Assembly (NCBI GenBank): GCA_027382625.1
Contig: JAJKFJ010022255.1
Span: 1 to 64,000, forward strand
Length of the DNA: 64,000 bases
Direction: 5' to 3'
Source: Tetmemena sp. SeJ-2015
Taxonomy: Eukaryota; Ciliophora; Spirotrichea; Sporadotrichida; Oxytrichidae
Shown piece by piece: positions 39,500 through 62,105 of this stretch. Position 1 is the first letter of the stretch. The number at the start of each line of letters is the position of its first letter. Both the position numbers and the translations under genes were made by a program. Below the pieces are notes generated by a model. That model was not told the origin of the DNA and made no database searches. It worked only from the letters and a program-made list of their open reading frames with translations.

Positions 39500-42308
39500 T
39501 ATAAAATATCATGCACTGCATTTCTCTTGTTAGATGAATGATCTTAGCTGCTTTGGAGAGACTCGCTTTCTTCCTACAGCTGTTCTATTGAACCTCCTTC
39601 GTAGATTTAATCATTTTATTTGGATCTCCTGGATATACTCTATATAAATTAAAGTAAAGTGGAGCTGCCTTTTTAAACCTTGTAGAGTTTGTTTATTAGA
39701 GATTCCTTCAATAGCTATCTTTATAATCAAATGAAATAATTTGATTAATTAAGATCATAATAAGTACTTTGAAAAGATCTTTATTTTGAAATTTACTAAA
39801 TGTTTCATTAAACCTATTTATACTTTTTATCTTTAAAGCCTGCTGATGAAAATCTTGGCTAAGAGAGCCATAACACTAGAAAGACCTCCTGTTAAACTTA
39901 GATATTCCATGACACTATTGACTGTGCGAGTAGTCACATCCTTAGAGTAAGAGCTCATTAATTAAATGCCCGTCCTTGCCATATTTCTAGCCTCTGGTTA
40001 ATAGTGATAAGTAGATCCTTTGTGAATGTCTAAGTATTTGTAGTGGCTATTTCCAAACATCGGACCCACCCAAGAATCCTGGGTTACTAGTTCATTCTCT
40101 GACAATACTATATCCTGAGTATAGGCTCTATCGTAAGACATAGAGTACGTAAGAGAAGAGTACAAATTCTTTATAGGCTTCTTGTTAAATTCAAAAGCAT
40201 CGAAATAGCTTGACATCAGCATTATATGTACATCTGTCCTATCAAATACATCCAAAATTTTACTACAAAAATATTTTTTTAGAATTTTTCTTTTCATCCT
40301 TTATCTAGTCTAATGGAGCACATGAAAAATTAGCTCCTTAACTCTTAAGCGACGAGTTAGAGCAAGGACTTATGTAGGCTGCAAACTGACCTGAAATACC
40401 TGTTTATGATCCAAATATTTGGTAGTCGATAACCTCCGGGCAATAGAAATTATTTAGTGACATCGATTCAAATATATGTTCATCTCCTGAAAATCGAGAT
40501 CTTTAGATATAATATTCATTTGGTTAAAATAAATCTATTACAATTTATTGTCTTATACTCAGTAGTATTTTATTTCATTTTCCTATCTACATCGTATTTA
40601 CTAAAAATAAATGGGAAAGTTTTTTATTTTTTTAAGTTTAAACTTAAAATAGTAGTTTTAGACTTGAAAGAGCCCAATTTTGTAGTATTTGAATGGATGT
40701 GTATCTGCTTCATACTTGTGTTGGCCTATTATTATAAATTTAGAATTGATTTTCAAAATTAAGAAATAAATAATTAATTCGTTGGAGTGCGTTAAATACC
40801 CCCCCGCCTGAATTAAATAGTTTGTAGTTTGAATTCCATCTATTAGATTATAACTGTGCCATTCAGTTGAGTAGTGCATTAGTACAATTGGGTACTTTTA
40901 AAAATCCGTTACACCTCAGTTGTACAGTTGCACTAGTGAACTACTCAGCCGATTCACTTTCGCATGCTTATTCAGGCGTACCGTTCAGTCCTCTACAGTC
41001 ACTGCGGTTGTTCCCCATTGGTCTAGGTGGCTAGGATAGGGCGGGTCTACCCCGGGGCAGGGCGAAGGTAGGTGTCCGGGGTGTCCCCCTTGGCCAGTGC
41101 GGAGTACCCCCCCAGGGGGAGGGGGTTCGAACCCCGCCGGTGACCAGAGGACGGTGTGTAAGTGTGAGCCGGAGTTTACAGAGAGGACTAAGTAAGGATG
41201 AGTAGAGCAACAGTAACAGTAAGGGCCGGTTGGGGGAGGTCACCGGCGGGGTTCGAACCCCCTCCCCCTGGGGGGGTACTCCGCACTGGCCAAGGGGGAC
41301 ACCCCGGACACCTACCTTCGCCCTGCCCCGGGGTAGACCCGCCCTATCCTAGCCACCTAGACCAATGGGGAACAACCGCAGTGACTGTAGAGGACTGAAC
41401 GGTACGCCTGAATAAGCATGCGAAAGTGAATCGGCTGAGTAGTTCACTAGTGCAACTGTACAACTGAGGTGTAACGGATTTTTAAAAGTACCCAATTGTA
41501 CTAATGCACTACTCAACTGAATGGCACAGTTATAATCTAATAGATGGAATTCAAACTACAAACTATTTAATTCAGGCGGGGGGGTATTTAACGCACTCCA
41601 ACGAATTAATTATTTATTTCTTAATTTTGAAAATCAATTCTAAATTTATAATATTGAGAATCCTATTGCCAAATCGAAGTTCTTTTCAGTCAAATGAATA
41701 GATGAGGAATCCACGAATGGATCTTTATATAGAGTCTTCTTCACTATATTATTCAAGTCAAAATATTCATTTATAAATGGTGTGTGTTTTTTTCTGCTCA
41801 GCCAGCCTGACCAGCTCGGTGCAATAGTTTTTTTTTCTTGCTGTGGTTCTTCCGGCAGATTCAGTGTCTCAGAGTGTGAGCCAACGGGGGTGTTGGAGGT
41901 CAAGTCCACTTAGGGATTTTCTCTCGTCCCTAAATGAGAGCGGTGCGTCACTCCGACTAAATGACGTCATGGGTTAACACTTTGCATGAGGGACCGGTCA
42001 CACTAGTTATGAGCGTGTTTTAGTGGGTGATATAAAAGCCATATAAATACCCTTGCAGGATTCTTATTCTGCTAATCTAATCTAATCTAATTATTTACAA
42101 ATCGAATATTATTCGTTTTATTGACTACATCTCTGAGGCCATAAGCAAAGAATGCCAGCAGAAGCAGTCTTGTTATTATTGAGAAAGTACCGCCTAGCAC
42201 TGTTTGATAAGTAAAAATTTTGTTTAAAAATTGGCAAAGTTTAAAAAGTCTCGTTATTTTTGTATTAGAGAGTGATGGGAGCACCATATATATCACTTTT
42301 CTTAACAA
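39500..42308 (-). CDS. ciliate-type membrane protein split by a palindrome
   Basis: N-terminal MDS (42308-about 42090): FKLCQFLNKIFTYQTVLGGT then a transmembrane helix (IITRLLLLAFFAYGL). A second block (41909-41646) has KKHTPFINEYFDLNNIVKKT and ends NFDLAIGFSI exactly where the palindrome begins. Downstream of it, 40490-40300 reads FYCPEVIDYQIFGSQTGISG and YISPCSNSSLK, then 40297-39900 gives SSYFDAFEFNKKPIKNLYSS, a Ser/Thr-rich region and YLSLTGGLSSVMALLAKIF (second helix). From memory, this two-helix layout with YCP...SGxF..Y.SPCSNSS motifs occurs in a large uncharacterised ciliate family; function unknown. An apparent frame slip occurs near a run of seven A at about 40270. The part between the palindrome and 40490 has no agreed frame. 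The C-terminus is approximate. Confidence 0.65.
40730..41653. repeat. perfect 416-bp inverted repeat around a 92-bp spacer
   Basis: Left arm 40730-41145 and right arm 41238-41653 are exact reverse complements as far as I can check by eye. The outer part is AT-rich and the inner part very GC-rich, with C and G runs. The inner arm contains GGTTCGAACCCC, which matches the B box of Pol III promoters and is itself near-palindromic; no complete tRNA is evident. No transposase is encoded. The element interrupts the coding sequence of a membrane protein. Standard-code frames in the two arms are mirror images and not genes. It could be a fold-back element (MITE-like), a large IES, or an amplification chimera. 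Confidence 0.9.
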
Positions 42309-44948: not shown

Positions 44949-46862
44949 ATGAGTTTTTCCAACCCCGCAGTGCAGTAGCACTCTCTAGAAGGTCTCCACA
45001 GATATCTTATATATGAAATCCTTCAATTCCTCGAGCTCGGATCTACAATCAAACTTTCCTAAGCCAATAAGTCGTTTAACTCTTTGGTTTGCAAGCTTGA
45101 AGAGGGAAAAAGTCTACTGAAGTAGACAATTTGGAAAGAACTTGGACTGATCAAAGATGTATAGTTCGAGAAAGAGTTCTTGAGAAATACTTTGAAGGAC
45201 TCTGAAGATAAGTTAAGCTCAGATATCTTAATAGTTAAGATTTTTAAAAATTCATCTCTTGCTACAACGATTTAGAGTTTTGCAAGGATATGTATGCTAG
45301 AGTGCTTAAATGGTGGAAGCCTTCATGCCAGAGGCTTTTCGCATTTCGGTCGACTGGAGGAATAGACCAGAATTCCATCTATTATTATTTAAGCCACATC
45401 TTCAACCGCAGCTATTCTCACTTTGCCTATTGCTCAGAGATAAGTCCCAATGTAGACCTAACTGGTGTCTTTCTTAACTAGAGATAAGATGACATCCGTA
45501 AGGCTCTATTTCTCTTTAATATAGGGTAGATACGAATGGATGATCGAGGGTAGAACAATAAAGTGAAGAGCTTCTACTAGCCTCTACTTGACTGCAGGAT
45601 AGAGAAGCAAGAAGAAGGCGACTGTTAGCTCAAGCTTAAAAAAGAGATTAGTAATGTTTTTAATCCTTAATAAATTATTCGTAAATATGGTCTTTAACCT
45701 CCTTCTGAGTGTAAATCTTCTTAACATAATTAATCTCAGCCAGTTTAGCACACTCTCTCCCCACTCCTCCTCCCTTCCTCACTCCAACTGCTCCTTCCTC
45801 ACCCACCACTCCCTCTCTCCCCACCCTCTCTCATCTTCACTGAATTTCGCACCCTCACTCTGTTTTCTCTCTCTTAAGTACTTAAGAGAGAGAAAAGAGA
45901 GTGAGGGTAGCGAGCAGTGAAGATGAGAGAGGGTGGGAGAGAGGGAGTGGTGGGTGAGGGAGGAGCAGTTGGAGTGAGGAGGGAGGAGGAGTGGGGAGAG
46001 AGTGTGCTAAGCTGGTTGAGATCATTTATGTTAAGAAGATTGTCACTCAGAAGGAGGTCAACGACCATATTTATGAATAATTTATTAAGGATTAAAAACA
46101 TTACTAATCTCTTTTTTAAGCTTGAGCTAACAGTCGCCTTCTTCTTGCTTCTCTATCCTGCAGTCAAGTAGAGGCTAGTAGAAGCTCTTCACTTTATTGT
46201 TCTAACCCTCGATCATCCATTCGTATCTACCCTATAATTGATCTTTTCTTAAAACATATTTTTATGTTTGCAATGACTGAGGCTCTTATTTTCTTTAGAC
46301 CAAAGAGCTCCCTCAAATATCTTAAGAAACTTTCAACCTCTAGGCTTTTTGACTATGGTTTTGAAATTGCGATGATTTAATATTTCAAGTTAATTTTAAG
46401 AAATATTTAGATGAATTTGTCGAAATCTCCGAGGCAGATTTTTGAGAACTACTACCACTAAGTTTATTCTATTTTTTAATTAGTTTTGGGGAACCCTGCT
46501 CTTTTCAACAACTTTGTGAGTTTGATTCGTAAGCTTGAAAATGGAAGAGCGCTCTCAGAGCAGGAGCTGGTGAAACTAGTAAACTCTAAAGCATGTGAGC
46601 TCTATGACAAGATGAAGGAAATAGCGCAGTTTGTGAGCTACGAATTCAATGAGAGACTTGACCAAAACAGAACTCTGCTTTAATTGTCTTAGATTCAGTC
46701 ATTAATAGATATATCTTATGCTGATGAAGAGAGACTTCCCTCATTATGTGGAACTTCAGCATGCTGATGCGGTTTTGAGGAGTGCTCATTCACTCTTGAT
46801 TTTCGACAGAGTTAAGATATCCAGAAAGGGCAATTTCACTTGTCCCGTTAAAAGCTTATTTT
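44949..46862 (+). CDS. F-box-like ciliate protein, frame-broken
   Basis: ATG 44949 starts SLEGLHRYLIYEILQFLELG followed by QANKSFNSLVCKLEEGKS and IWKELGL, a pattern like an F-box (SCF ubiquitin-ligase adaptor). The frame then must switch near 45250 to continue MYARVLKWWKPSCQRLFAF, FAYCSEISPNVDLTGVF and QDDIRKALFLFNIG. After the palindrome, ALSEQELVKLVNSKACELYD and, in another frame, MKRDFPHYVELQHADAVLRS and KGNFTCPVKSLF complete it. The stop was not fixed. Two frame switches plus the palindrome mean either a pseudogene, sequence errors, or MDS segments not yet located. F-box assignment is by pattern only. Confidence 0.5.
45521..46236. repeat. imperfect zero-spacer palindrome, arms about 358 bp
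   Basis: Left arm 45521-45879 and right arm 45880-46236 are near-complete reverse complements meeting at CTTAAGTACTTAAG with no spacer. Scattered mismatches and small indels show that the arms have diverged, unlike the perfect palindrome at 40.7-41.7 kb. The inner half is an extreme polypyrimidine tract (left) and polypurine tract (right). The outer half of the left arm carries in-frame F-box-gene coding sequence (FYQPLLDCRIEKQEEGDCQL), so the right arm holds an inverted duplicate of it. Confidence 0.88.
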
Positions 46863-47849: not shown

Positions 47850-50800
47850 AATAGAATAAATAATTACTGAAGAAAAGGTAGACTCAGAGTCGGAATGAGG
47901 GCCACTGCCTGGATGCTGTTCATGAAGATTCTCTGTTTCTATCCTTTTAAAACTTCGTTTCTTTGTTTCTCTATCATTCTAGGTCGATAAATAATTTATT
48001 TAAGGTAGATTTTGTAGAAGTATTGGAACTATTAATCTAGGCGAATTAATCCTCATTCAAATGTAGGCTTAAAATAATTATGATGCTTTGGTCGTGAGAA
48101 GGCAGGTAAATCTAAGTTGGCTTTTAGCTCTATATGCAAAGTTTTTTCTTCATGTGATGGGAGTCATGCTTTTCTTATATAATGTGCACCACTTTGAAAT
48201 AAGTTATAAGCATAATGAAATTAGTTAGTTTATACTTGAGGTTGCTGATTGACTTTCTTATCAAGGCACTCCTCAAGGATCTTAATAAACTACTGCTGAC
48301 CATTTTGTAAGCCAGCCTTCGGGGATCCTATATAAGACTAAGGACTTGGATCTAATTTGGCTATAATCTACCCTTGGCCAGCTGATTTAAGCTGATCTTA
48401 TTTCAATTAAAAATCAATGAGTATACTTAATCTTAGAGACTCTTAATTTTATACTTATACTTAATATTCTTCTAGTTGATGGTTAAATTGGTTTCCTTTA
48501 AGTTCTTTATTACATCTTTCTGCTTGTCTATCTTTCTTTGCTATTCCTCAGCTTAAAATATAAGGATGTACAATTAAACTTATGTCTATACAGAGAATAC
48601 TTTTCATTTAGAGAAGCTATTTCATTCTCTTGGTAGTCCATAACTGTCTACGCTTACTAGTTCAGATGTTTTAGCTCTTCTGAGAAGGCCTGAGCCTTTA
48701 AGAAATTTTCATCTACCTCTCTCAGGTGACTCAATTGATTAAGTTCCTCTGCAAGTCTTTAATTTTCTTCCTGCTGTCTCATTACGGCCTCTTAGAGGAG
48801 CTAATTTTGCTACTGCTGTTGTTTCAGCTCTTTCTTGGCCTTAGAAAAGTTAGTCTTCACTTATTCTTTCTCCTCTTAGTCTCTTTCATTAAACTAAGGC
48901 TTTAAATATGGCTCAAAACTTAAAATGATAAGTTTAGTTTATATCTTGAGACTTTAATAGTGCTATTGTAGCATTTTAACTTGGTCTTTCATCTCAATCA
49001 GCTTCTGCTCTTGGGAATCAACTTGCATCTCCTTGATCTGCAGTTTTTACTCTAAGTTTTGCTTGTTCCTGGTCAGTTCTTTCTTCTCATTCTCGTAGTT
49101 AACTTAAGGAAAATGGAAAATTGTAAAAAATGTTGGTAACTTCTATGCGAGCCAGTTTTTCCTTAAAGAAGGCGATTTGAAGTTCTTAAGATTCTATCTT
49201 TTCCTAATTAAGCCTCTCCTTCTCCCTGTAGTAGTTTGTCTCAGGTGTCTTGTTGATCTGCCTCATTGGAGAAACAGATTCAATAAATTTAAATACCCTA
49301 TAAAATGAGATTTGTATCTTGTGTTTATCTAAATATTATAAGATTAATGCTTAAGCTTACCTCTTAACTTATAGATGTGAGATTCTAATAGGCAAAGTGC
49401 TACCTCTAATTAAGCATGTTTTCCTTATCTTCAAGTCGGTTGTATGACTGCTGATTGTGATGTAGCGACTAGTTAGTCTGTGAGTGAAATAGTCTTTATA
49501 ATCAAAGCTTAGCTGAGAAGAACTCTTATCCCTTTCTCTGCCCCGCTCATTCCTCTACTATTGAAGACTTGAATGTTAGTTGTGCGGCAGTAAACTGAAC
49601 TTGTTGTTGAGACCTAGTGGTGTAACTAACTTAGAGAGTTCAGATCTGCTATCCTTATCTAAGTGCTGATTCTAATCCACTCCGCTGATATCGTCATGAG
49701 ATTACTGCTCTCTATCTGAACGATAAATTAATTATAGACTCCTAATACTTTTTAGGATAGGGCTGTTCATCAAAGAAAGAGAGGACTTATTAGGGTCAAA
49801 GTTGCTCACTTGACTTCTATCTAGACTTTTTTATCTCTGATGAATGCTTGATGACCTCAAACCGCTGCTTTGTAAAACTCCATTACTGAATCCTACTCCA
49901 CCCATATTCCCTAAAGAGGGCAAAATTTGTGATGAACTGGTGTGAAGATTGCTAGATTAAGAATTAAAGCCAGTTTATGTTGCTCCTAAGGCAATTAGGA
50001 AATTACCTCCAGTAGAAAAGCTTTGAATGCTATCCTTCATCAGCACTTTAGCTCTTTCACTGCTGAATAACTCCTTGATCTTACTTTAATATAATTCTTA
50101 GCCTTAGGTTAGAAACCAATAAAAGTATCTGTAAATTGCATAGCATTTTATAAACCACAAGCTTTGATTCTTTGATTAAATATCTTCTACTTTCATATCC
50201 TTCAATGAAATGATATTTGGTATGAGCAAGTTTCCAATCCCCCAAGCATAAACTTGTCCCTAATCATCAAGAGCTGCTGAGAATTCTCCTGAAATTATCT
50301 TTTCGATATTTTTGCCTTTCAACTGAGGAATCTCTTTAGGATAGTAAGCTGCTTTATTATGACCCAATCCCAGCTGAAAACTTTGATTTCTTCCAATTCC
50401 AAATACTCTATGACTCTGAGTTAGGCATATAGTGAAAAACTAATCTCCAAAAGCTATTTGCTTTACTTTTTCTCCCTCTATCGCAAATTCTTTCATCTCA
50501 GGGGATATTGTCTATATACAAAATAATAACAAATTTTGGTCTCTTATTGTGAAAGATTGAGGCAGTTATCATCATTTCTTCCGCATAAAAAGGCCTTGTC
50601 TTTGGTAAGTATTCCTGAATTTAAATTAAAATTACGCTAAATTGTGCTTGCCAGTTACTATGCTCATTATTTTTCCAAATAAAGAAAATTTATCTTAACA
50701 AATGAATGGTTTGAGATTGCTCTTGGTGAATTTTGACTCTCAGACTCTGCTTAAAACCCAAGAGCGCCATCCAGGGAGAAGCCCCAAGAAAAAACTTGGT

Positions 50801-54851: not shown

Positions 54852-55506
54852 TATGACTCTTGACAGCTGAAACTAGCACCGAATATTCATTCATATTCAA
54901 ATGAGAATTTAATTAATTGATGTGGGAGATTTCCAGATCCCTTCAGTCTAAGAACAGCATACTTTAGTTACTGAAGTAAAAATAGAGATCCATCTCCAAC
55001 CTCTTCATCTTGGCAAAATATGATATACCTTAGAGGTAATAGCTCCAACAAAGGATTGCAATCATAAATACTTTATAAGCAATTATGTAATGTTTTCTAT
55101 TATATGAAACTCAAGTTTTCAACGAGAATGCTAGCGAATTCTAATAGATCGTTTCTATATCTTATATTTTAGGAAAGTATACAGTGGTATAACACTTAAT
55201 CCTAGAATTATTGACAAAATCAAGATCTTCGGCTCAAAGGTGAAGTGCAAACTTTGGATAATTAAAAGATTCTAAATGCTGGTTATGACAGTGCAGAGAT
55301 CGTTCAGAACCTCAGAAGTGAAATCTACAATGGAAACACCCACATAAAATATTTTGAATTTTAATTAGAATTTAATTTTTGATTTCAGAATTGTAGCGCC
55401 ATCATTTGAAGATCAGGATTAAAAATGCTAGGTCTTAACAAGATCAGCAACGGCAATAGCTATGTTAAACTATTTATAATCCAAAAGGACTCATTTTTGG
55501 CTGAAG
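54852..55506. other. CCT2: CCT2 cluster A: even-position and linking MDSs
   Basis: Ten segments, coordinates with strand: MDS2 55110-55138 (+); MDS4 55038-55060 (-); MDS6 55431-55461 (-); MDS8 55381-55408 (-); MDS11 54989-55015 (-); MDS17 54926-54960 (-); MDS19 55485-55506 (+); MDS21 55213-55245 (+); MDS23 54852-54879 (-); MDS25 55275-55340 (+). All are short (22-66 bp) and separated by AT-rich spacers. Each supplies the few residues missing between two consecutive segments of clusters B and C, for example MDS4 (QSFVGAI), MDS21 ([10 protein letters not shown]), MDS23 (VLVSAVKSH). Confidence 0.95.
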
Positions 55507-57592
55507 TAAAAGCGAAGCATTATAAAAATATATGCAAGAATGAGTCCTTGAGGGTTCCTCCATTTTTCTTGATGAGCTTAATGTAGTCGAGATTTTCAAT
55601 ATACGAATGAGGGAGTCTAAGTTTGTATCTCAATTGGAGCTGAGGGTGGTCATAGCGATGTTCTTAAGATCTCTTCTGAATGCTTCCTCGTCTCCAGAGT
55701 TGTCCATAGCTGAGTCTCTCAAGGTCTTAAGGGCAACATCTCTGGCTAGTCTCCATCAACTATTTATAATCCTAACTCAGATAAATCCTTTTCTGGTTGA
55801 CAAGCTTCTCAGCTTCTCTGATGAGCTCTCCAGCAATAGTTATAATGATTGGATTGGCACTTTGAGATATCGATGAGAATCTTGGCGGCAGGGTTGTCTA
55901 CGTGAATAGATTTCAGAAGCTAAACTGAAAATGTTTAGTTTCATCATCATTTGTGACAGTGATGGATCTCTTAGCAGTGGGGTCACCAACGCTTTGGAGA
56001 ATCTTATCCATGCCCTTGGGTCCGAGAGTGGTCTTTACTATAACGGCAATAGCTCTTTATTAAGGATTGCATTCTAGCAAGTTCACCCTTATCTTCGCTA
56101 GCATTAACTATTATTTGCATGTTAAACTTGAGGAAGGACATTGCCAACCATATCCATATCGTGCGACGCCATGAGTTTATAATTGAAATTTAAATAATTA
56201 TTAAGACTTCGCTCCTTAAATTTATTATTAAGTATGCTCACTCACTCCATTCGCTCAGTTTGAATTTACTACTTATCATGTATTTTATAATTAGGATATC
56301 TCAAAGTGCCAAGATTGAGCATCTTAGATTTCATTAGAGATGGAACCACCACTGTTGCAGTACTTGCTGGAGAGTCAAAAGAGAAAGTTAACCAGAAAAT
56401 TCACCCCCAGATCATCATTCAGGGATGGAGGCACTCCAATTATCGTAAACTCAGCTCCAAGCTTCTGCTTGAAGATAGAGAGCACTTCTCTAACCTCGCA
56501 GTCGATGCTGTTCTTAGACTCTCATAATATCATTAGATGTTGTTAACTTATTTGGCTGAAGGTTTCATCTTGGAGAAGAGCATTTCTACCGGATGCCCCA
56601 GGAGAAAGGAAAAGCCCAGAATTCTCATCGCTAACACCCCCATGGATCAAGACAAAATCAAATCATGAGTACTCTCATAAAATATGATGTCTCAAAGGTG
56701 AAGGTCGACTCTATGCTTAAGGTCGCAGAGATTGAAGAGGCAGAGAAGATGAAGATGAAGAAGAAGGTCGAGCAGATCCTCGCTCTCAAGCCTGACGTTT
56801 TCATCAACCGTCAACTCATCTATAACTACCCTGAGCAATTATTGGCAGAGAAAGGAATTATGGTTATTGAGCATGCCGACTTCGACGGCACTGAACGCCT
56901 CGCAGCCGTGCTAGGAGCTGAGATTCTTTCCACTTTCAATAGCACTGGTTTCTCAGAGACCCAACAGCCCAAGCTCGGAAGCTGCTAAGTGATCGAGGAG
57001 CTTATGATTGGTGAAGACAAGGTCATCTGCTTCAAGGGTTGCGCTGCTAACGAGGCTTGCTCAATCGTTCTCAGAGGCTCAGGCTCTCACATCCTCGACG
57101 AGGCTGAGAGAAGTATCCACGACGCTATCTGCGTGCTAGTTTGAATGAATACAACTACAAATGAAGTCTATTTTATGAATGAGTAAAGAGTCATAGAGTT
57201 CTATACGGCGGTGGCAACAGTGAGATCAGAATGTCCCTCGCTGTTGAGGAGCTCGCTAAGTCCGTGAGAGGAAAGCAGGCTCTTGCTATTCAGTCCTACG
57301 CTCACGCTCTCAAGCAACTACCTACCATTATTTCCGATAATGCTGGTTATTAAAATTGTCATTCAAGAAATAGTTCTCTTAATAGCATTATTTGGATTTC
57401 GATTTGATTGGAAACACCGAGGCTGGCTTGAACATGTTCAAGGGAGAAGTGGATAACATGAGGGAGCTTGGAGTAACCGAGTGCCTAAGAGTGAAGGAGC
57501 AAGCCCTGCTCTCCGCCTCTGAAGCAGCCGAGTTGATTCTAAGAGTGGACGAAATCATAAGATGCGCCCCAAGAAAGAGAGAGGGCCAGTGA
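54852..57592. CDS. CCT2: chaperonin CCT subunit beta, scrambled gene of 26 MDSs
   Basis: Joined in macronuclear order, 26 segments give one uninterrupted frame of 545 codons (544 residues plus TGA), close to the usual length of about 535 for CCT2, a subunit of the TRiC/CCT ring that folds actin and tubulin in the cytosol. The total of MDS lengths (1897) minus the 25 pointers (262) is exactly divisible by three. Landmarks: [22 protein letters not shown], the GDGTT nucleotide motif (built from MDS11 and MDS12), [81 protein letters not shown] and a C-terminal [15 protein letters not shown]. Pointers are 6-18 bp, mean about 10. Start ATG at 56172 (minus strand), stop 57590-57592 (plus strand). 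Segment maps are in the next three entries. No frame conflict remains. Confidence 0.97.
55539..56172 (-). other. CCT2: CCT2 cluster B: minus-strand MDSs
   Basis: MDS1 56172-56124 (start codon first; upstream limit not seen), MDS3 56105-56062, MDS5 56055-56042, MDS7 56035-55945, MDS9 55918-55854, MDS13 55836-55789, MDS15 55757-55634, MDS18 55595-55539. Pointers (5' to 3' in gene sense): 1/2 CTCAAGTTT, 2/3 AATGCTAGCGAA, 3/4 TGCAATCCTT, 4/5 GAGCTATT, 5/6 AGCTATTGCCGTT, 6/7 AAGACC, 7/8 CAAATGATG, 8/9 TTCTGAAATC, 9/10 GATATCTCAAAGTGCCAA. Gaps between successive segments here are small (about 6-42 bp). Confidence 0.95.
56295..57592 (+). other. CCT2: CCT2 cluster C: plus-strand MDSs
   Basis: MDS10 56295-56315, MDS12 56337-56374, MDS14 56390-56430, MDS16 56450-56520, MDS20 56551-56661, MDS22 56691-57142, MDS24 57186-57350, MDS26 57409-57592. 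Pointers: 10/11 TGCCAAGAT, 11/12 GAGATGGA, 12/13 TTGCTGGAGAG, 13/14 AACCAGAAAA, 14/15 GATGGAG, 15/16 CTCAGCTCCAA, 16/17 ATGCTGTTCTTAGACT, 17/18 AAATCTC, 18/19 AAGGACTCATT, 19/20 TTTGGCTGAAG, 20/21 GACAAAATCAA, 21/22 CTCAAAGGTGAAG, 22/23 GTGCTAGTTT, 23/24 AAGAGTCATA, 24/25 AATGCTGGTTAT, 25/26 TGGAAACACC. In cluster C the last four gaps are filled by plus- or minus-strand segments of cluster A. Confidence 0.95.
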
Positions 57593-59794: not shown

Positions 59795-62105
59795 ATGATG
59801 GATCCATCTATCTAGAAAAAGTTTAATTTGATAAGCTTGATGGGAATAAGTTTATTTTCCCTTTCCACTGCCTATACGTCCTCTTACTATCCTTACCCTA
59901 GAGCTTCTTTGGATAGCGGATCTTACTCGAATATTGACACTGCAAGAATGATAAATATCTTAAATTTAGATTAATAATCTATTGAATGTACCACTTCGAG
60001 CTCATAACCGCAGTTAAGATATATTTGTTCTTTATTGAGTTGACTTTGACAAGAAGGTGCTAAGTGGACTGCAGACAGTATACTTTGATGCCTTGCAAGA
60101 CGTATCTGAAGTGGTTTTAGATATCCAAGGCCTCAATATTACCAGATGTACATATCAACCATAAGTTCAAAAAGCTCAGCCACTTTAAGTTGATCCAGGC
60201 TTCGTTGAGGCAAACTATGATGTTTTTGAGGATACTCAAATGAACACCAATATAAAAACATTGAGAAAGGTATTTTCAAGTTGCTCATTATTATTTAAAT
60301 TAATGGACTCATAATTTACTTGACCGATAAGATTTTTAGAGGTTCTAAGTTCTCTGTTCAGATTTCTTATACTGTCTTAAGTAATAGTGTATCCGTGAAT
60401 TGGTTGGATCCCTCTTAAACAGCTAGCAAGACGCTACCTTATATGTACACTAAGTGCACTCATAAAAATTCATAGTCATGTTAGATTTGTATCTGAATCA
60501 ATAAATTGCCATCCACTGTAGATCAATAGCCCCACTCCAAGATTATTTATTTTGGTAGATACTCCTGCAGTAAAGGTCACATACGCTGGTGCTGTGTCTG
60601 TTAAGGATACTTTCCTTGCTAACATGAGCGCTCCATTCGTCTCATAGGAGAGCAACAATCCAGGATGGATGACTTATCATTTCCAACTGTCAGACTAAGA
60701 TCCCTCCTTATTTGCTAGCCATAGCAGTGGGAAACCTAACTTCCAAGAAAATTGGAGATCGCACTTATGTTATCAGCGAGCCAAATGTGATTGATGATTA
60801 TGCAGATGTCTTTTCAGGCCTAGAGGTAATCTTGAATCAGACTGAGACTTATATGAAGCCAGTGCCTTACTTGTGGGGAACTTATACAGTTCTCGTGCAA
60901 CCACCCAGCTTCCCAGTCGGAGGAATGGAGAATCCTCACCTTACCTTCGTCTCTCCCTCTATAATGCAGAAAGATAAGTCACAGGTGTTCGTTGCAGCTC
61001 ATGAGATAGCTCACTCCTGGTCAGGAAACCTAGTCACTCAAAGAGATTGGCACAACCTATGGTTAAATGAGGGTATTACTGTGTTCATTGAGCGCAAGGT
61101 GAGCTCTATTCTCCATGATGCCGATTTTGCCAAGATTGAAAATTATCTGGGGAACTTGACAGTGTGGGATGACATTAACTCTTTTGGAGCAAGCAGCCCC
61201 GATTCAAGTCTATACCCTCCCATTGGCAATAACCCAGACTCTGCCTATTCAGAACTACCTTACGAAAAGGGAAACCAATTCATGGACTACTTAGAGATAG
61301 TCTTGAATCAAAATGGGAAGAATACTACTGACAACATGCAGATCTTCCTCTCAACCTATATTAACAAATACAAGTACATGTCTCTCAACTATCTCGATTT
61401 CAGAGCATAAGAATAAGCTTTTTTATTTTCTAAGCATTCTTCAACTCTTTCGTTGACTCTTAATTTGCACCAGCTGATGCTTTAACTTACAAGGGTATGG
61501 TTGATTGGGATGCCTGGATTACCCAGGGAGGCAATAACCCTTATCAACTAGACTTTAGTTCCCCTAGTGCCACTGTTTATCAAATGCTAGCTCAAGAATA
61601 CGTATCCCTAGATGGCACCGATTAAAGCCCAGTTAACATTACTCTTTACCAAAAGGAGACAAACATAAACCTCAAAGTGATCTTCCATCAGCAACTTCTA
61701 TAAAGTGCTAACTACTTATCATACCAGACGGTTGCTAAAATAGATAAGGATCTCAACTTGCACAACTGATTAAAATCCTGAGGTCGGATAAAGATGGTTC
61801 CCCCTTGCCATTCAAGTCGGTTACCAAGCTGCATTTGATGCTGCCAATGCCTATGTAGGAGCCTATGGAAGACAAAAGTACATCTTGCCAGTCTACACTG
61901 CTCTTTGTAGAAATGGATACAGATCACTTGCTCTCAAATTATTCCACATTCTTATCTATCTTTGTTTTGTAAATGGTATAAGCAATACGAGACCTTCTAT
62001 CATCCCATCGCTGCTGCAAATATCAGAAAGATAATTTTGGCTACAATGGGAAGAGAAGAAGCTCTGGAAATGATTACTCCATCAAGAAAGAGTATTGACA
62101 AATGA
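59795..62105 (+). CDS. secreted M1-family zinc aminopeptidase (LTA4H-like)
   Basis: ATG 59795 with a signal-peptide-like start (FNLISLMGISLFSLSTAY). MDSs joined by pointers give IDTARMYHFELITAVDFDKK, VLSGLQTVYFDALQDVSEVV, GSKFSVQISYTVLSNSVSVN, then AIAVGNLTSKKIGDRTYVIS, the substrate motif GGMENPHLTF, the zinc site HEIAHSW with the third ligand in NEGITVF, PYEKGNQF, YLDFRAFFNSFV, MVDWDAWITQGG and a C-terminal helical domain (LKWYKQYETFYHPIAAANIR) to TGA 62103-62105. The order of motifs and C-terminal domain match leukotriene-A4-hydrolase-type aminopeptidases, which remove N-terminal residues. The signal peptide suggests a lysosomal or secreted enzyme. Residual breaks: around 60455-60550 (unplaced segment), one base near 60700 (CTAAGATCCC) and one near 61760 (TTGCACAAC). 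Confidence 0.88.
59951..59988 (+). other. 38-bp IES, pointer GAATG
   Basis: GAATG at 59946-59950 and 59984-59988; join gives GCA AGA ATG TAC CAC TTC, in frame. Confidence 0.82.
60016..60041 (+). other. 26-bp IES, pointer AGTT
   Basis: AGTT at 60012-60015 and 60038-60041; join gives ACC GCA GTT GAC TTT GAC, restoring the conserved VDFDKKVLSG strand of M1 peptidases. Confidence 0.85.
60267..60340 (+). other. 74-bp IES, pointer AGA
   Basis: AGA at 60264-60266 and 60338-60340; join gives ACA TTG AGA GGT TCT AAG, in frame. GT-AG edges also occur here (GTATTTTC ... TTTTTAG) but splicing there would break the frame, so IES is preferred. Confidence 0.75.
61409..61437 (+). other. 29-bp IES, pointer AGCAT
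   Basis: AGCAT at 61404-61408 and 61433-61437; join gives TTC AGA GCA TTC TTC AAC, in frame. Confidence 0.85.
61940..61974 (+). other. 35-bp IES, pointer AAAT
   Basis: AAAT at 61936-61939 and 61971-61974; join gives CTT GCT CTC AAA TGG TAT AAG, in frame. Confidence 0.85.

Follow-up and report, generated by a model that had tools for sequence, protein, structure and literature searches.

Positions 54852–57592 of the window (the whole 64-kb stretch of DNA that was analysed) hold, as judged from sequence, almost certainly a germline (micronuclear) scrambled CCT2 gene, for the TCP-1 beta chaperonin, of a hypotrich ciliate. The locus is complete for the coding part. When all six frames were translated with the ciliate code, in which TAA and TAG stand for Q, CCT2 fragments appeared on both strands of this interval, which also contains abundant short exact repeats in both orientations. 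The best PDB match of the assembled protein was CCT beta, with 660 bits over residues 15–541 of a 542-residue query from which the last two residues had been left off; the best non-beta CCT subunit, eta, scored 283 bits. With its interleaved arrays, inversions and AT-rich spacers, the locus is a spirotrich-type scrambled micronuclear gene of the Oxytricha/Stylonychia kind. This interpretation, put forward in an earlier reading of the letters alone (hereafter the sequence-only reading), is supported by segment order, pointers and AT-rich spacers. The kind of phenomenon is ordinary and already well known in the group. CCT2 is a highly conserved housekeeping gene, the map is complete and checkable, and at 2.7 kb the locus is compact enough for PCR at each join.

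Reconstruction of the CCT2 coding sequence

We rebuilt the gene manually by way of exact repeats, which gave 26 segments (MDS 1–26) on both strands, 25 joins and an intact coding sequence (CDS) of 1635 nt that reads as 544 residues followed by TGA, with TAA used once for Q and TAG never (Table 1). The sequence-only reading had counted 545 codons, which is right with the stop included, and had placed the gene between the same limits, the start of MDS 23 at 54852 and the end of TGA at 57592. Its proposal that apparent gaps are filled by micro-segments from a cluster that it called A also held, the pieces being MDS 2 (before NASED), MDS 4 (between SLI and AIA), MDS 23 (after CVL) and MDS 19 (KDSFL to AEGF). 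The segments, the repeats, their order and one intact product are direct observations.

Table 1 Segments of the scrambled CCT2 gene in coding order, with window positions and the pointer that joins each to the next.
Segment	Position	Strand	Out-pointer	Pointer length (bp)	Remarks
MDS 1	56124..56172	-	CTCAAGTTT	9	starts at ATG; 5' leader outside map
MDS 2	55110..55138	+	AATGCTAGCGAA	12	
MDS 3	56062..56105	-	TGCAATCCTT	10	
MDS 4	55038..55060	-	GAGCTATT	8	
MDS 5	56042..56055	-	AGCTATTGCCGTT	13	14 bp, skippable
MDS 6	55431..55461	-	AAGACC	6	
MDS 7	55945..56035	-	CAAATGATG	9	
MDS 8	55381..55408	-	TTCTGAAATC	10	
MDS 9	55854..55918	-	GATATCTCAAAGTGCCAA	18	
MDS 10	56295..56315	+	TGCCAAGAT	9	21 bp, skippable
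MDS 11	54989..55015	-	GAGATGGA	8	
MDS 12	56337..56374	+	TTGCTGGAGAG	11	
MDS 13	55789..55836	-	AACCAGAAAA	10	
MDS 14	56390..56430	+	GATGGAG	7	
MDS 15	55634..55757	-	CTCAGCTCCAA	11	
MDS 16	56450..56520	+	ATGCTGTTCTTAGACT	16	
MDS 17	54926..54960	-	AAATCTC	7	
MDS 18	55539..55595	-	AAGGACTCATT	11	
MDS 19	55485..55506	+	TTTGGCTGAAG	11	22 bp, core length 0 (its 11-bp pointers abut)
MDS 20	56551..56661	+	GACAAAATCAA	11	
MDS 21	55213..55245	+	CTCAAAGGTGAAG	13	
MDS 22	56691..57142	+	GTGCTAGTTT	10	largest, 452 bp, residues 261–412
MDS 23	54852..54879	-	AAGAGTCATA	10	
MDS 24	57186..57350	+	AATGCTGGTTAT	12	
MDS 25	55275..55340	+	TGGAAACACC	10	
MDS 26	57409..57592	+			ends at TGA; 3' trailer outside map

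As had been claimed from the letters, an exact repeat (pointer) was found at every join (25/25), 6–18 bp in length with a mean of 10.48 bp, in direct orientation at 12 joins and inverted at 13. Seventeen of the 25 pointers were at least 10 bp long and all were at least 6 bp; pointers usually measure 2–20 bp according to PMC4702850. In 200,000 draws of two random ends from this locus, at least 6 bp were shared at a frequency of 0.00219 and at least 10 bp at 0.00003. Exactly two copies were present for 24/25 pointers within the locus and for 17/25 within the window. The frame was kept throughout, again as claimed; this is required of any correct assembly and adds little alone.

Because the segments had been picked for having repeats, shuffled controls are the fairer test. 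An automatic alignment could continue from any position to any other, whichever the strand, provided that both shared a repeat of 6 bp or more. Guided in turn by three references, P0006 (91% identity), P0004 (90%) and P0086 of Pseudocohnilembus persalinus (69%), it returned each time a 544-residue protein identical letter for letter to the manual one, and the claim of a traceable scrambled CCT2 was thereby upheld by the manual map and the automatic alignment together. The CCT2 locus scored 2217, compared with 322–367 for 16 dinucleotide-preserving shuffles, 325–383 for 12 other 3-kb stretches in the window; with the reference reversed, the score was 380. Human CCT2 was rejected as a guide for the automatic alignment: MDS 1–2 and the C-terminal tail were missed, with spurious short jumps there, and at the loosest setting further spurious jumps appeared near reference residues 336–342.

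Germline architecture of the locus

The germline order of the segments, with a minus sign for the minus strand, is −23 −17 −11 −4 2 21 25 −8 −6 19 / −18 −15 −13 −9 −7 −5 −3 −1 / 10 12 14 16 20 22 24 26. Array 1 (54852–55506) has mixed strands; array 2 (55539–56172) lies on the minus strand with strictly monotonic, descending segment numbers, and array 3 (56295–57592) on the plus strand with strictly monotonic, ascending ones. Consecutive segments never share a block, and the sole germline neighbours with consecutive numbers are 18 and 19. This layout is the odd–even pattern with inversion known from spirotrich scrambled genes, for which PMC9797194, PMC4702850, PMC2394655 and PMC10901763 were consulted. 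Together the 25 spacers amount to 844 bp (median 29 bp), and their G+C content is 24% versus 47% in the segments; one of them, 56173–56294, takes in the unmapped 5' leader. Since the untranslated ends lie outside the map, the whole CCT2 chromosome may have more than 26 segments. The longest contigs of four close relatives (P0002–P0005) measure 1653–1765 bases, a length that suits a chromosome with one gene. No telomere-like string (CCCCAAAA or GGGGTTTT) and no telomere addition site was found in the 64-kb window.

Elsewhere in the window, a perfect 416-nt inverted repeat (40730–41145 / 41238–41653, 92 nt between the arms) is among the most G+C-rich parts, and the long open frame in it (40750–41517) matched no Pfam family. 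A second inverted repeat of 228 nt (45548–45775 / 45980–46207) is 96% complementary with 204 nt between its arms, and a G+C-rich tandem repeat at 1294–1423 has 3.3 copies of a 39-bp unit with 93% matches. Parts of other genes were also present: RCC1 repeats at 49090–50568 on the minus strand, and, in two open frames at 60673–62070 on the plus strand, an M1 peptidase whose C-terminal part is that of leukotriene A4 hydrolase. Neither tRNA genes nor Rfam families were detected when the window was scanned for them.

Number of segments

The 26-piece map works as the sequence-only reading had drawn it, but the number itself is a modelling choice and is not forced, given that MDS 5 and MDS 10 are redundant. 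The two pointers that flank MDS 5 (8 and 13 bp) overlap by 7 bp and cover all of its 14 bp; those of MDS 10 (18 and 9 bp) overlap by 6 bp and cover all of its 21 bp. When both segments were left out, the CDS was identical, by way of repeats of 7 and 6 bp that join MDS 4 to MDS 6 at AGCTATT and MDS 9 to MDS 11 at TGCCAA. MDS 19 behaved differently: without it, the same letters were obtained only by an end-to-end join that lacks a repeat.

The same scrambled gene might accordingly work with 24 pieces, MDS 5 and MDS 10 being leftovers of an earlier arrangement. This route needs fewer joins for the identical CDS and is the one chosen by the automatic alignment with all three references, yet it leaves unused an 18-bp exact inverted repeat (55854–55871 / 56295–56312) and a 13-bp exact repeat (55449–55461 / 56042–56054), and puts pointers of 6 and 7 bp in their place. 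No exact repeat of 18 bp arose in any of 200 base-composition shuffles, which makes MDS 5 and MDS 10 somewhat more likely to be real segments. We therefore lean towards all 26 segments being in use and regard a 24-piece gene as a possible but less probable arrangement.

Since MDS 5 and MDS 10, with their overlapping pointers, can be skipped with the product unchanged, and MDS 19 has pointers that only abut, the locus could also be midway between architectures of 24 and 26 pieces, so that both routes would run in development. We consider this unlikely; if true, it would show that piece number can change without effect on the gene. The term 'overlapping pointers' was not found among the matches listed in the open-licence literature. 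In either case, the two skippable segments offer a defined place for asking about the gain or loss of segments.

Comparison with a deposited Sterkiella nova CCT-beta

A protein search returned first the CCT-beta of Sterkiella nova (UniRef Q9U4E0, P0001; 544 residues), which was 98% identical over the full length. It has the same length and order as the product assembled from the window: 533 of the 544 residues are identical, there is no gap, and all 25 join regions are identical (25/25). The gene order predicted in the sequence-only reading is thereby matched at the amino-acid level by a deposited protein, and the joins are confirmed against this record at that level of sequence, not at the nucleotide level. 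Q9U4E0 is a continuous gene product, whereas the window holds the germline arrangement; as the record, of which name and sequence were seen, is continuous, it probably stems from a macronuclear gene or cDNA.

The 11 differences (residues 301–306, 316, 321–323 and 328) all fall within MDS 22 and none lies at a join. With agreement at every other residue, S. nova or a very close relation of it (family Oxytrichidae) is the most likely source of the window. Other frames of the window DNA at residues 301–328 give PSTHL and MP, as in Q9U4E0, and because they supply part of its letters, the comparison suggests that Q9U4E0 carries paired one-base reading errors in this patch. No relative of this protein turned up when viral_contigs was scanned.

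One CCT2 locus found in the assembly

One might suppose that the window holds a decaying scrambled copy and that the working macronuclear CCT2 derives from another, unscrambled locus, the more so as scrambled genes tend toward more paralogues in three spirotrichs (PMC9797194, section 8). Yet the 544 codons form one unbroken frame, and the product is identical to Q9U4E0 outside one patch. A family search with PF00118 (Cpn60_TCP1) over the 146-Mb assembly (5213 contigs) gave 39 matches, which were spread over 14 contigs; three fell on the CCT2 contig. On 11 of the 13 other contigs, the best stretches were 24–48% identical to CCT2 over at least 50 residues, a level that fits other CCT subunits or chaperonins; the remaining two (C3068 and C4945) had no CCT2 match at E 0.001. 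In this one PF00118 search of an assembly that may be incomplete, no second CCT2 was found among the places listed on the 13 other contigs. A decaying copy is very improbable on these grounds. Still less credible is an assembly artefact, in which misassembled reads made the order and strands: nothing was found in its favour, misassembly would not give repeats at 25/25 joins, AT-rich spacers and two monotonic arrays, and the pieces of 14–30 bp are far shorter than reads.

Predicted rearrangement and origin of the scrambling

PMC9797194 and PMC4702850 describe RNA guidance, pointer recombination to one copy, spacer loss and telomere addition as established in Oxytricha. By analogy, RNA templates from the old macronucleus would guide the CCT2 segments together in the developing macronucleus, recombination at the pointers would keep one copy of each and invert segments where needed, and the spacers would be discarded. 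The addition of telomeres would then complete a gene-sized chromosome, on which CCT2 would be transcribed. Both the RNA guidance and its timing are carried over here from Oxytricha.

For the origin of such loci, the duplication-and-decay (paralogous-MDS) model of Gao et al. 2015, as described in PMC9797194, expects a spacer to resemble the segment exchanged for it. At the CCT2 locus, the lengths of spacers and exchanged segments were uncorrelated (rho 0.14, p 0.65, 13 pairs, 12 of them with both flanks on one strand), and only one of the 13 pairs showed similarity at p<0.05 (pair 13, p 0.018). The idea that these spacers are decayed segment copies thus met an essentially negative result, in a test weakened by the shortness of most cores. 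The result bears on the origin of the locus, not on its identity. Section 8 of PMC9797194 itself reports only weak spacer/segment correlations in Oxytricha and Tetmemena. MDS 5 and MDS 10, which have no letter of their own, could look like partly decayed duplicates of the kind that the model invokes; the uncorrelated spacer lengths and the 12/13 pairs without similarity at p<0.05 differ from it.

Relation to known scrambled genes

Nothing was found in the open-licence literature on scrambled micronuclear CCT2 in ciliates or joining Sterkiella nova with chaperonin, though a published map may exist. Scrambled germline genes with pointers have long been known in Oxytricha-type ciliates, far larger cases included. 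The CCT2 map is a clean additional example of this known phenomenon. Like the odd–even genes of Oxytricha, Stylonychia and Tetmemena (DNA polymerase alpha, actin I and TEBP alpha), CCT2 has shuffled and inverted segments, joins at short exact pointers, and AT-rich spacers, and its alternate segment numbers are split between arrays that lie on opposite strands; the gene concerned is a different one. In size it is modest: according to PMC9797194, the most scrambled genes have 195 scrambled junctions in Oxytricha and 204 in Tetmemena, compared with the 26 pieces of CCT2.
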